A stretch of 50,194 bases of DNA from Syntrophus aciditrophicus (lineage in GTDB: Bacteria > Desulfobacterota > Syntrophia > Syntrophales > UBA5619): contig DYTH01000007.1 of the NCBI GenBank assembly GCA_020726025.1, positions 1-50,194 on the forward strand. Direction: 5' to 3'. A model generated the notes under the pieces. That model was not told where the DNA came from and did no database searches. It saw only the letters and a program-made list of their open reading frames with translations. The position numbers were made by a program, and so were the translations under genes. The stretch's first letter is position 1, and each line of letters begins with the position of its first letter. Below are positions 7,904 to 43,770 of the stretch, piece by piece.

Positions 7904-8245
7904 ATGACCGCCACCCACAACATTTTCTCCGACGTACCGGCTGAAATCAGAGGGGAATTCTTCCAGGACATCCTGCGGAGCGACCATGTCAGAATTGAGA
8001 GAATCGTCTCGCATGGAGAGAAAGCGAAGCTTAATGTTCACAAATCGCCGGACGGATTCTGGTACGATCAACAGGAAAATGAATGGGTTCTGCTGGTTGC
8101 GGGGACAGCGGAACTCTCTTTCGCAGACGGCCGCCGGGTTGCCCTTCTTCCCGGCGATCACCTGCTTATCCCGGCACACACACGGCACCGCGTGGAAAAA
8201 ACCGACCCGGAGCAAGACACCATCTGGCTGGCCGTCCATTTTTGA
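7904..8245 (+). CDS. Small cupin-domain protein with a 7-residue in-frame insertion
   Basis: This is a 113-residue single-domain cupin: GFWYDQQENEWVLLVAGTAELSF, then LLPGDHLLIPAHTRHRVEKT, and the terminal TIWLAVHF. The family is widespread and its substrate is unknown. As I recall the family, the segment before GFWYDQ runs SHG-x-x-SPxG. Here seven extra residues, KAKLNVH (40-46), are present. They are encoded by bases 8021-8041, a perfect codon-phased copy of the 21-bp unit found elsewhere in the window. The insertion falls in the loop before the first cupin motif, so the fold is probably kept. The ribosome site is AAGGAG. The gene follows the MFS gene by 12 bp. Confidence 0.85.
   Translation: MTATHNIFSDVPAEIRGEFFQDILRSDHVRIERIVSHGEKAKLNVHKSPDGFWYDQQENEWVLLVAGTAELSFADGRRVALLPGDHLLIPAHTRHRVEKTDPEQDTIWLAVHF
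8021..8041 (+). repeat. 21-bp dispersed repeat unit inside the cupin gene
   Basis: The 21 bases begin AAAGCGAAGCTTAATG and differ only in the last base from the reverse complement of 37643-37663. They are in codon phase (codons 40-46) and appear to interrupt the normal cupin sequence. Confidence 0.85.
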
Positions 8246-8303
8246 ACATAAAGCGCCATGTTCATAAAGCCTCAGGTTTGGAACAGACTGAAAAGACAAG
8301 GAT

Positions 8304-8595
8304 GATGCTCTCGTCAAAAGTCGATTTTGCCCCCTTTTGTCATTCCGTGCTTGACGCGGAAAGCGAAGCTTGATGCTCTCGTAAAAAGTCGTCACACCGG
8401 TGAAAACCGGTGTCCAGTGTTTTTGTAACGCGTTGAAATCTCTGGATTCCGGTTTTCACCGGAATGACGATTCCTGGACATTTTTGACTTTTGACGAGCT
8501 CATCAAGCTTAATGTTCATAATCCAGTGAATTTAGGTGCTTCTGGATTCCGGCTTTCGCCGGAATGACGGTTTTTGGACTTTTTACGAGAGCATC
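8304..8595 (+). mobile_element. MITE copy B (outer element, interrupted by an inner MITE)
   Basis: The left terminus GATGCTCTCGTCAAAAGTC starts at 8304 and the right terminus ends CATC at 8595. Removing the inner element and one 6-bp duplication leaves 153 bp, which equals the 132-bp standard MITE plus one 21-bp unit, exactly like copy F at 37567-37719. The flanking hexamers AAGGAT/AAAAAT are only a partial duplication. The right end abuts the HAD gene start, supplying its 5' untranslated sequence. Confidence 0.88.
8372..8504 (-). mobile_element. Inner MITE nested in copy B
   Basis: The element is 133 bp, with GATGCTCTCGTAAAAAGTC at the left and GACTTTTGACGAGCTCATC at the right. It is flanked by a perfect 6-bp duplication AAGCTT (8366-8371 and 8505-8510) that lies inside the 21-bp unit carried by the outer element. 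Its core combines a CACACCGG-type hairpin and a GGATTCCGG-type hairpin. Confidence 0.9.
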
Positions 8596-8599
8596 AAAA

Positions 8600-10544: not shown

Positions 10545-11147
10545 CATGGCTCGGAAAAGTTGGTCGCCGGAAAGCGCCCGGCGAAAGCCGGGGGCCCCAA
10601 CGGGATGAAAAGTATGGATTATGAACATGAAGCTTCGGTTTCTTGTTTTTTTATGCGGAAGTTGAGGGCTAAGTCACTATAGCCGAGGGCGAAACCCGGG
10701 GAAGCTAATGTTTCCACGGATCGTCCTGATGATGGTTCGTTCTGTTTTCTCTGAACGTTAAAAATCCGAGCACCCTGATTTTTTTTGCGGCGCCAGATTC
10801 TGGCATTCAGAACTGCATGATATAATTAAGCGTTTCACGCGAGTTTGAAAATTTGCCTCTTCCGTAAATGACCGGCGGTCAGAAAAAACAGGGGCATGGT
10901 TCGGGACAGTTCCACGCGGTGAGGCGTCTTTGTCTGTCCCGGTGCGCGCCGACCTTTGCACGCAATTGCCGCGCAATCACAGCCCCATCAAAAAATGACG
11001 GACGACAACCAGGATGCAGGCAGCCCCTGTAATCTGCATGCATTTTTGCGATGCGGCTTATGAAAATGGCGGCAGGTTTCTCTTGCTATTTTGAACGGAA
11101 TATGGCGACGAATGAGCCATCGAAAATCACAGGGCGCAGGGGTAAAA
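10545..11147. other. Gene-free stretch with a GC hairpin and a dispersed repeat
   Basis: No convincing ORF is seen. A strong tetraloop hairpin GCCCGGC-GAAA-GCCGGGGGC lies at about 10587-10605, enclosed by TTGG/CCAA pairing, soon after the rfbA stop. A second G-rich motif lies near 10686-10700. A dispersed repeat occupies 10621-10680. The remaining sequence, including a GACAGTTCC...GTCTGTCCC region near 10908-10940, shows nothing I can assign. Confidence 0.5.
10621..10680 (+). repeat. ~60-bp dispersed repeat carrying the 21-bp unit
   Basis: This region matches 20962-21021 over about 60 bp. Both begin with the 21-bp unit (ACATGAAGCTTCG core), run into TTTCTTGTTTTTTTATGC and end in a TAAGTC-CTA block, with about ten differences. 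Both copies are intergenic and in the same orientation. Confidence 0.75.
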
Positions 11148-13733: not shown

Positions 13734-13765
13734 TTTTTCTTCTCCTTTATCAGCGGTGCAATATT

Positions 13766-13896
13766 GATGAACTCGTCAAAAGTCGATTTTGCCCCTTTTG
13801 TCATTCCGTGCTTGACACGGAATCCAGTGAATTTAGGTGCTTATGGATTCCGGCTTTCGCCGGAATGACGGTTTTTGGACTTTTGACGAGAGCATC
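13766..13896 (+). mobile_element. MITE copy C (standard form)
   Basis: This 131-bp element has left end GATGAACTCGTCAAAAGTC and right end GACTTTTGACGAGAGCATC, flanked by a perfect palindromic duplication AATATT (13760-13765 and 13897-13902). The interior holds two GGATTCC-type hairpins. It lies between the divergent thioesterase and rfbC genes. Confidence 0.95.
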
Positions 13897-13973
13897 AATA
13901 TTGGCGTCCGTCCATTCCATCGCATGATCGGCATCAGTGAAGCGCTGGCGCCGTTTACTATGCAAAACAGGAC

Positions 13974-20961: not shown

Positions 20962-21021
20962 ATAAACATGAAGCTTCGCTTTCTTGTTTTTTTATGCAGG
21001 AGTTGGGGAGTAAGTCGCTAA
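20962..21021 (+). repeat. ~60-bp dispersed repeat carrying the 21-bp unit (second copy)
   Basis: Partner of 10621-10680. It begins with the 21-bp unit (AAACATGAAGCTTCGCTTT) and continues through a T7 run into AGTTGGGGAGTAAGTCGCTA. Confidence 0.75.
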
Positions 21022-24705: not shown

Positions 24706-24900
24706 ATGAGCAACGAACCTGAAAACACAACGCCAGAGAAGTGGGTAAACCTTGAGGATATTGCCGTTCATCTCAGCATGAGCGAGGACACCGTTCGCAC
24801 ATGGGTCAAAGAAGGAAAGCTGCCGTTCTATCGGGCAGGGAAGCGATATAAATTTAAAATTTCTGAAGTTGACGCATGGGTGCGTGAGGGTAAAATTTGA
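24706..24900 (+). CDS. Excisionase/MerR-type helix-turn-helix protein
   Basis: The 64-residue protein KWVNLEDIAVHLSMSEDTVRTWVKEGKLPFYRAGKRYKFKISEVDAWVREGKI (region 13-64) matches the excisionase-family DNA-binding domain (winged HTH of the MerR/Xis type). The ATG follows GGAGG. Its stop codon uses the first bases of the MITE (AAA ATT TGA). Without the MITE and its duplication the frame would end at the same place with TAA, and fic would start 12 bp later. The two genes therefore originally formed a tight operon. Confidence 0.82.
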   Translation: MSNEPENTTPEKWVNLEDIAVHLSMSEDTVRTWVKEGKLPFYRAGKRYKFKISEVDAWVREGKI

Positions 24901-25030
24901 TGTACTCGTCAAAAGTCCAAAAACCGTCATTCCGGCGAAAGCCGGAATCCATTAGTGACTAAATTCACTGGATTTCGTGTCAAGCACGGAATGACAAAAG
25001 GGGACAAAATCGACTTTTGACGAGACCATC
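24899..25030 (-). mobile_element. MITE copy D, between the HTH and fic genes
   Basis: This 132-bp element is in the opposite orientation to copy C. It is flanked by a perfect palindromic duplication AAATTT (24893-24898 and 25031-25036). Its termini are GATGTACTCGTCAAAAGTC and GACTTTTGACGAGACCATC. Confidence 0.95.
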
Positions 25031-25050
25031 AAATTTAAAGAGTAAATCGA

Positions 25051-25969: not shown

Positions 25970-26387
25970 ATTGCAATTCACATTCATCTACCACGGGCTC
26001 ATAGTAAATGCTGGATCACGATATCCCAAGAAGATCGGACTGGTGGCTTATCGATGTTTCACTATTGGTCTTGTCAATGAGCTGTAACTTCTCTTTATGG
26101 CTTAAGCCCAGATTTTTTTAAGCCAGTTAAGGTACTCATTCAACTGGCCAAGCTGAAGATAAAGCTCCTGGATCAACTCTTCCCGATCCCGCTCTCCTCT
26201 TTTTTACTCCCAAGTGTGATGGTCTCGTCAAAAGTCGATTTTGTCCCCTTTTGTCATTCCGTGCTTGACACGGAATCCAGTGAATTTGGCCACTTATGGA
26301 TTCCGGCTTTCGCCGGAATGACGGTTTTTGGACTTTTGACGAGTTCATCAAGTGTAACTTATCACACTATCCAGATTTCGGGGTCCA
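25970..26387 (-). mobile_element. Decayed IS3-family insertion sequence
   Basis: On the minus strand, an OrfA C-terminus (RDREELIQELYLQLGQLNEYLNWLKK, ending near 26104) is followed in another frame by an OrfB N-terminus: KEKLQLIDKTNSETSISHQSDLLGIS-stop-SSIYYEP. The LLGISRSSxYY signature of IS3 OrfB is interrupted by TGA in place of Arg. A terminal sequence TGGACCCCGAAATCTGG starts at 26387. Most of orfA, the orfB catalytic DDE region and the other end are gone. MITE copy E is inserted in it. A 40-codon plus-strand frame overlapping the fic stop (25965-26087) is the antisense of this remnant. Confidence 0.75.
26218..26349 (+). mobile_element. MITE copy E, inside the IS3 remnant
   Basis: This 132-bp element is flanked by perfect AAGTGT duplications (26212-26217 and 26350-26355), with termini GATGGTCTCGTCAAAAGTC and GACTTTTGACGAGTTCATC. 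Confidence 0.95.
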
Positions 26388-31899: not shown

Positions 31900-32044
31900 G
31901 GTTCTAAAATCTCCTTTTCATCGTTATATTAACGTGATGCCCGCACAAACAGGCGCCACGAATTTGCGCGCGATTATGCCGGGATGCCTCTGGAAAGTCA
32001 AGAAGTTATTTGCGTAATGCATGCCATAGCGCTTCCTGGCCAGG

Positions 32045-32257
32045 AAGCTTCGCTTTGTGACCATTAAACTTGATGCTCTCGTCAAAAGTACATTTTCCCC
32101 TCCCCTTGCGGGAGGGGATTAAGGGGAGGGGAAAACGACATCCCGTAATACAGTCACTTATCGCCCCCACCCTGACCCTCCCCCGTGAAGGGGGAGGGAA
32201 TTTTAGACTTTTGACGAGTTCATCAAGCTTCGCTTTGTGACCATTAAGCTTCGCTTT
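32045..32257 (-). repeat. Tandem 21-bp units at the 3' end of dusB, split by a MITE
   Basis: Unit 1 is 32045-32065. The next unit is interrupted at AAACTT (32066-32071) by the MITE and resumes as 32225-32245. A partial third unit is 32246-32257. Each unit is AAGCTTCGCTTT plus a 9-nt variable tail (GTGACCATT here, ATGAACATT-like elsewhere). Before the MITE arrived this was a 2.6-unit tandem of period 21. The dusB stop codon (32244-32246) lies in it. Confidence 0.8.
32072..32224. mobile_element. MITE copy H with an unrelated core
   Basis: The termini GATGCTCTCGTCAAAAGTA and GACTTTTGACGAGTTCATC are those of the family, but the 115-bp interior is entirely different. It consists of CCCTCCCCTTGCGGGAGGGG- and CCCTCCCCCGTGAAGGGGGAGGG-type hairpins. 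Flanks AAACTT and AAGCTT are a near-perfect 6-bp duplication. This suggests that the ends, not the core, define the mobile unit. Confidence 0.85.
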
Positions 32258-37566: not shown

Positions 37567-37719
37567 GATGAACTCGTCAAAAGTACAAAAACCGTCATTC
37601 CGGCGAAAGCCGGAATCCAGAAGCACCTAAATTCACTGGATTATGAACATTAAGCTTCGCTTTCCGTGTCAAGCACGGAATGACAAAAAGGGGCAAAATC
37701 GACTTTTGACGAGTTCATC
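37567..37719 (-). mobile_element. MITE copy F between purH and purE, carrying the 21-bp unit
   Basis: This 153-bp element equals 132 bp plus a 21-bp insert. Perfect CATTTT duplications flank it (37561-37566 and 37720-37725). Orientation is opposite to copy C. The hairpin site GGATT/CCGTG is split by the 21-bp unit at 37643-37663. Removing the element restores a compact purH-purE junction. Confidence 0.95.
37643..37663 (-). repeat. 21-bp unit inserted inside MITE copy F
   Basis: Relative to copies C and E, exactly 21 extra bases (containing ACATTAAGCTTCGCTTT) lie between GGATT and CCGTG. They are the reverse complement of the cupin insertion at 8021-8041 except for one end base. Confidence 0.88.
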
Positions 37720-43590: not shown

Positions 43591-43770
43591 GGGCAATTGT
43601 GGACATTAAGCTTGAGGAACTCGTCAAAAGTCGATTTTGCCCCTTTTTGTCATTCCGTGCTTGACACGGAATCCAGAGATTTCAACGTGTTACAAAAACA
43701 CTGGACACCGGTTTTCACCGGTGTGACGACTTTTTACGAGAACATCAAGCTTCGCTTTCACGAATTGCCC
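43591..43770. repeat. Hairpin with the 21-bp unit in its loop, interrupted by MITE copy G
   Basis: GGGCAATTGTG (43591-43601) is complementary to CAC-G-AATTGCCC (43759-43770). Without the MITE and its duplication, these arms enclose one copy of the 21-bp unit (left part 43603-43613, right part to 43758). This shows an uninterrupted-locus context for the unit: the loop of a hairpin. Confidence 0.65.
43614..43746 (+). mobile_element. MITE copy G
   Basis: This 133-bp element is flanked by perfect AAGCTT duplications (43608-43613 and 43747-43752), which lie inside a 21-bp unit. Left end GAGGAACTCGTCAAAAGTC (one change), right end CTTTTTACGAGAACATC. The core pairs one GGATTCC-type half with one CACCGG-type half, a chimera of the two core types. 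Confidence 0.93.

Follow-up and report, generated by a model that had tools for sequence, protein, structure and literature searches.

A 21-bp unit inserted in frame in a cupin gene

The window analysed here, a stretch of 50,194 nucleotides forming contig 54 of a 2.16-Mb, 92% complete MAG (G000), encodes a cupin-domain protein whose gene contains a 21-bp unit, AAAGCGAAGCTTAATGTTCAC (Table 1). As a first-pass annotation of the window had claimed, the unit starts exactly on a codon boundary of the ORF at 7904–8245 ((8021 − 7904) mod 3 = 0) and codes for residues K40 to H46. The same annotation held that the family runs directly from SHG into SPxG, without the insert. The absence of seven residues was borne out: in the 22 other genomes with homologues, which range from about 70% down to 38% identity, none of the proteins has these residues, and the net gap is exactly seven in each full-coverage alignment (the most distant homologue, at 38% identity, has further gaps elsewhere). 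The directness was not, since the homologues read SHG-x-x-SP, a two-residue linker (E-A, H-A or Q-A) remaining at the point where the unit entered. The insert is likewise missing from the same-genus species G001.

Table 1. Positions of the cupin gene, of 21-bp units and of associated MITE sequences in the window
Feature	Positions	Strand	Evidence or remarks
Left half of a unit (AAAACGAAGTT), A-T stem type, adjoining a MITE end	43–53	−	
Cupin-domain gene, 113 aa, carrier of the insertion	7904–8245	+	Pfam PF07883 Cupin_2, E 8.8e-9; homologues in 22 related genomes
21-bp unit, in frame as KAKLNVH (residues 40–46), target G(8020)^AAA	8021–8041	+	7-residue gap in all full-coverage homologues
Minihairpin AAGC-GAA-GCTT of the cupin unit	8022–8032	+	Fold, G-C pair covariation, GNA minihairpin literature
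Left half of a unit (AAAGCGAAGCT), split by the inner MITE	8360–8370	+	
Inner MITE within the unit; AGCT duplicated at 8367–8370 and 8506–8509	8371–8505	+	
Right half (TAATGTTCAT) of the unit begun at 8360–8370; unit within outer MITE 8303–8597	8510–8519	+	
Unit with stem variant AAACCGAAGCTT, inside a longer repeat common to 20962	10621–10641	−	
Unit, 1 mismatch, inside a longer repeat common to 10621	20962–20982	−	
Third array unit, decayed, 3 mismatches	32036–32056	−	
Second array unit, right half, after AGTT duplication	32057–32066	−	
Second array unit, left half, interrupted by MITE 32071–32225	32226–32236	−	
Complete unit, first of a tandem array	32237–32257	−	
Unit in MITE copy F at CGG^AATCC	37643–37663	−	Unit-less MITE copies for comparison
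Right half of the unit begun at 43748–43758; unit had entered a hairpin at G^AATTGCCCC	43599–43608	−	
Left half of a unit split by MITE 43613–43747	43748–43758	−	

The cupin insert is, as had been noted, the sequence that distinguishes MITE copy F: the reverse complement of 37643–37663 is AAAGCGAAGCTTAATGTTCAT, which differs at the last base only, and MITE copies without the unit lie at 13787–13898, 24897–25008 and 26240–26351. All of the further variants listed by the first-pass annotation exist, those at 10621–10641, 20962–20982 and 32237–32257 as near-complete units and the others as halves separated by a MITE. The halves pair as 8360–8370 with 8510–8519, 32226–32236 with 32057–32066, and 43748–43758 with 43599–43608, in each case with a 4-bp duplication, AGCT or AGTT. 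The MITE has ends TGATGNNCTCGTCAAAAGTC (TGATG...CATCA) and 4-bp target duplications (ATAT, AATT, AGTG; e.g., 13764–13897, 24898–25033 and 26218–26351), and it repeatedly inserts at the AGCT of units. At 8303–8597 the nesting is twofold, with a MITE in a 21-bp unit that itself lies in another MITE copy.

Anatomy of the unit and its target

The unit and its surroundings follow the rule G^[AAAGCGNAGCTTNATGTTCAY]AAW, with a length that is always 21 bp and a target of G^AA(A/T), and no terminal inverted repeats were found in the unit. The base to the left is G, except within arrays and at a few sites, and AAA or AAT stands to the right in 43 of 52 site clusters. Where the 21 bp are removed, the remaining sequence makes sense, as in ATGAAAATAGTGGTTACATCG (MKIVVTS) and the hairpin CCGGTGAAAACCGG; the junctions share at most AA(A), and the gain is 21 bp. 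Because AA flanks both sides, a cut after G and a cut after GAA are both possible, and a 2-bp duplication looks the same as simple insertion. The unit can always be read through in two forward frames, and in the third for some variants.

Hairpin loops were considered as preferred targets and set aside, as arms of at least 7 bp were found at 2 of 38 sites compared with 1.3% of controls, which is too few. At two sites of G000, C46:21220 and C59:18111 (L012 and L026), the left half of one repeat family is combined with the right half of another, as if the units there were recombination joints.

Copy number and distribution

At up to two mismatches, G000 contains 142 copies of the unit and none of the reversed pattern; Markov resamples of the window put the chance expectation at 0.05 matches at this threshold. 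When the stem pair was left free, again at up to two mismatches, we found 168 copies in G000 and 261 in G001, with reversed-pattern controls of 0 in both. Free-stem copies were also found in G003 (25, control 1), G068 (18) and G104 (28). The genome-wide search for the 21-mer located it at about 150 sites, many of whose flanks are unrelated, rather than at a few places related by common descent.

Matches at up to one mismatch were present in 13 of 297 genomes, all belonging to one order. The exact pattern, scanned against 84,980 species, occurred in 25 stretches, every one from a MAG named Syntrophaceae, Syntrophus or, where unclassified, Deltaproteobacteria or Pseudomonadota; it is from these names that we take the order to be Syntrophales. 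Near-identical units are present in two families of the order, and the copy number among related genomes spans 0 to 261. Viruses were rejected as carriers of the unit, as neither of the two IMG/VR matches has the G^..AA context and both look fortuitous. Two composite repeats that are all but identical to their counterparts in G000 are present on a 3-kb contig assigned to a Syntrophus aciditrophicus bin (L074, DYRD01000179.1), for which misbinning or transfer are possible explanations. In the Syntrophus-type genome G068, most units lie within one longer repeat, ...CCCGTCACAAAGGGGGATG[unit]AAAATG... (L066, L069, L070, L077, L080, L081).

Insertions in protein-coding genes

Since 21 bp is a multiple of three, genes can take up the unit without a frameshift, as the first-pass annotation had anticipated, and we confirmed such entries in essential genes. 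The seven residues (ESAASWS) encoded by the birA unit (C30:9458) are missing in 19 of 19 BirA homologues, and ribE (C72:8991) has a tandem pair of units whose 14 residues are absent both from 19 of 19 RibE homologues and from the solved structures of riboflavin synthase. For the priA unit (C116:2568), seven residues are missing in 12 of 13 homologues, and the thirteenth aligns with six.

Further in-frame copies, beyond those in the cupin, BirA, RibE and PriA genes, were called from ORFs, codon bias and Pfam only. At the N-terminus or just past the start codon, these concern rpiB (two units), a pyruvate-oxidoreductase-type gene, penicillin amidase, two Nitro_FeMo-Co genes, and three genes that we take, by sequence recognition, to be der, rimI (three units) and an HD-domain gene (two units); close to the C-terminus, they concern nusB and a lactate-racemase-type gene. 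In G001, an ATG is directly followed by about five consecutive units, and another in-gene unit is read in the third forward frame; G104 has one unit in a cysteine desulfurase gene. These in-gene counts are lower bounds, as the copies were examined from genome stretches. Overall, 12 of 38 site clusters lie after an ATG, compared with 7%, and the genes carrying units have no pathway in common.

The confident in-gene copies are in the sense direction, a bias that we regard as suggestive only. A possible antisense copy lies in a signal-peptide-like region of G003:C152 (L185), which reads FA[LWTLSFA]LLLFAAAQA. In G001:C2 (L259), a broken group II intron-type reverse transcriptase has an apparent in-frame unit, YAE[KAKLNLH]NLDANL.

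A GNA minihairpin in the first half of the unit

The first half of the unit consists of a 4-bp stem, AAGC/GCTT, closed by a GNA loop, which is GAA, GGA, GCA or GTA in 132 of 136 copies. In the same 136 copies, the second stem pair is GC in 110 and AT in 18, with a mismatch or wobble in a handful; among 51 distinct units, it is GC in 37, AT in nine and TA in one. These distinct units have 96.6% of their stem cells paired, with one covarying pair, and double changes occupy 10 cells compared with 2.2 after shuffling, a value above that of every shuffle and of slid versions of the stem. Among the listed copies, the A-T type dominates in G001 and the G-C type in G000.

The replacement of the G-C pair by A-T in a subfamily argues that the paired structure is kept, and the conservation of the loop G and A, with a varying N, points to the forward strand as the folded one. 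The covariation supports conservation of the first half of the unit as a GNA-loop hairpin, although it comes down to little more than one pair and the A-T type may have been inherited as a single subfamily or derive from a few sources. The predicted folding energy is not special relative to shuffles (z −0.9); as far as we know, the folding program gives no bonus to GNA loops. The stem and loop of the unit correspond to the d(GCGNAGC) minihairpins of Hirao and co-workers, which are described as extraordinarily stable and nuclease resistant (PMC4686876); the structure is known for this stability in single-stranded DNA.

Tandem arrays

Within arrays, the units follow one another in the same orientation every 21 bp. 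In 16 adjacent unit pairs, three of which include a MITE-interrupted or decayed unit, the neighbours differ by 2.38 bases on average, compared with 2.47 for random pairs (permutation p 0.40), and only one pair is identical. Replication slippage was therefore rejected as the origin of the arrays: neighbours in an array resemble each other no more than random units do, which argues for repeated insertion. Most simply, separate insertions of differing unit variants at one site would have built the arrays, and such re-use of a site is expected if the target stays intact.

Comparison with known short repeats

The first-pass annotation had likened the unit to the small dispersed repeats (SDRs) of Nostoc, a fair resemblance in that both are very short, dispersed, high-copy repeats without inverted termini. 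According to the papers that cite Elhai et al. 2008 (PMC2884548, PMC3116915), the SDRs of Nostoc and other cyanobacteria are about 20 bp long, dispersed and proposed to be mobile, and the first of these papers describes them as tandemly repeated. At 21 bp and with 168 and 261 copies in two genomes, the unit falls within the bounds of this class (about 20–27 bp, dispersed, high copy, no inverted termini). It differs from the SDRs, as far as these are portrayed in the citing papers, in sequence and phylum, in its defined G^AAW target and covarying GNA minihairpin, in its exact seven-codon insertions in essential genes relative to homologues, and in its arrays built by repeated insertion. We know of no transposase for SDRs.

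The Rickettsia palindromic elements (RPE; Ogata et al. 2000), as summarized in PMC2229807, likewise insert in frame in conserved, expressed protein genes as well as in intergenic DNA, as the unit does in the cupin, BirA, RibE and PriA genes, but they are 105–146 bp long with long stem-loops, compared with 21 bp and a 4-bp stem here. REP/REPIN sequences, which are associated with RAYT/TnpA-REP, are high-copy hairpins of about 20–50 nt, some of them intragenic, and are thought to move single-stranded (PMC8266576, PMC3733652, PMC6006769). The unit shares their conserved hairpin; however, it has G-A 5′ of the hairpin and no GTAG in its consensus, where REPs have the tag GTAG (or CGTC/GTGG), its arrays are direct tandems rather than the inverted doublets of REPINs, and no cognate RAYT flanked by copies was found. 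The ends of IS200/IS605 elements (IS608, ISDra2) are hairpins with a short 5′ guide that act on single-stranded DNA and insert 3′ of a short target without duplication (PMC6006769). The unit, too, enters precisely on the 3′ side of a short target, G^AAW or GAA^W, and lengthens the site by 21 bp, possibly with duplication of the 2 bp AA; unlike these elements, it is made up entirely of a single hairpin followed by a tail and lacks both a second hairpin end and a gene. With no inverted termini and at most AA(A) in common at its junctions, the unit also lacks the terminal inverted repeats and target duplication of a MITE. It is far shorter than any IS200/IS605-type element known to us.

Proposed mode of movement and alternative explanations

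On the sequence evidence, the unit is almost certainly mobile DNA, which has entered about 100–250 places in some uncultured Syntrophales genomes and has done so repeatedly in essential genes that were left unbroken. As to how it moves, we lean towards single-strand movement by a hairpin-recognising enzyme, as the short target, the lack of inverted termini and of a clear duplication, the hairpin close to the 5′ end and the re-use of sites fit transposition of the IS200/IS605 or REP kind. The unit would then be a non-autonomous element of exactly 21 nucleotides, whose hairpin would be recognised by an enzyme provided in trans while the DNA is single-stranded, for instance at the replication fork. 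This enzyme would cut the target after G (or GAA) and the unit at its YAA end, and would then join the unit into the target, as in single-strand transposition of those types. A target that survived insertion could be entered again, giving rise to tandem arrays, and the unit would spread as a mostly neutral passenger, because genes tolerate seven additional codons where these encode part of a loop or directly follow the start codon.

No Y1/HUH transposase gene flanked by units was found, nor any such clade common to the unit-rich genomes. PF01797 gave 22 matches in 12 genomes, with units within 1.5 kb at one locus only, beside a broken fragment. The only Y1 gene of G000 is cut by a contig end and has its best relative in G011, a genome itself devoid of units at up to one mismatch. 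A RAYT/IS200 gene appears unlikely as the mobiliser: no clade is common to the unit-rich genomes, and the second type in G068 occurs in that genome alone of 26.

RNA-templated addition, in which a reverse transcriptase would prime at a nicked ...GAA end and copy a 21-nt RNA template into one or more repeats in a telomerase-like manner, would account for the start at GAA, the end in YAA, the strict 21-bp periodicity and the tandem arrays, and the sense direction of the confident in-gene copies also speaks for it. We nevertheless consider it unlikely, because G068, which is 100% complete and has 18 units, contains no PF00078 reverse transcriptase. Moreover, the differences between array members would require many different templates, and no intact reverse transcriptase lies beside a unit, the sole nearby fragment (L259) being the one that apparently carries a unit in frame.

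Slightly less plausible still is recombination or template switching between copies through short homology, with no dedicated enzyme. The joined halves of different repeats at C46:21220 and C59:18111 and the AA common to the junctions agree with such a process, but it would bring variable flank lengths, whereas the observed gain is 21 bp (or a multiple of it) and the left base is G.

That the unit is instead a functional signal under selection, such as an uptake sequence or a protein-binding or coding site, appears improbable. Its near-identity in two families and its enrichment after ATG would suit a signal; yet the copies arise as whole 21-bp insertions rather than by point changes, their number varies as widely as described above, the genes entered have no shared pathway, and the position of the cupin insert is not conserved in G001. 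Finally, it is very improbable that units are detached MITE ends spread with the MITE: the MITE end TTGATG resembles the TTNATG of the unit and many units touch MITEs, but the MITE is bounded by ends of its own, shows 4-bp duplications (ATAT, AGTG, AATT) at unit-free sites and enters units at AGCT, and lone units in genes with exact 21-bp empty sites, as well as tandem units 21 bp apart, contradict this origin.

Returning to single-strand movement, we tentatively entertain the broader possibility that this 21-nt GNA minihairpin with its tail is the smallest mobile DNA yet recognised, moved single-stranded by an undescribed enzyme and, as seven codons, rewriting essential proteins across Syntrophales, with a compensatory change in the stem that sets apart the families prevailing in two sister species.

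Significance

Consistent with the statement of the first-pass annotation that no description was known for this lineage, a literature search for a Syntrophus 21-bp repeat gave nothing relevant. Very short mobile repeats, and in-frame repeats in genes, are already known kinds of element; as far as we searched, the sequence of the unit, the order in which it occurs, its target rule, its exactness at 21 bp, its minihairpin and the evidence from its arrays are undescribed. Very short mobile repeats were proposed earlier in cyanobacteria, where movement and mechanism were left open. With its fixed target, its covarying hairpin, tandem arrays whose members are tagged by variants, and four genes that gained exactly seven or 14 residues, the unit offers a clean system in which to ask what moves 21 nucleotides. 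The unit also represents a route by which proteins acquire seven-residue segments without selection for them.
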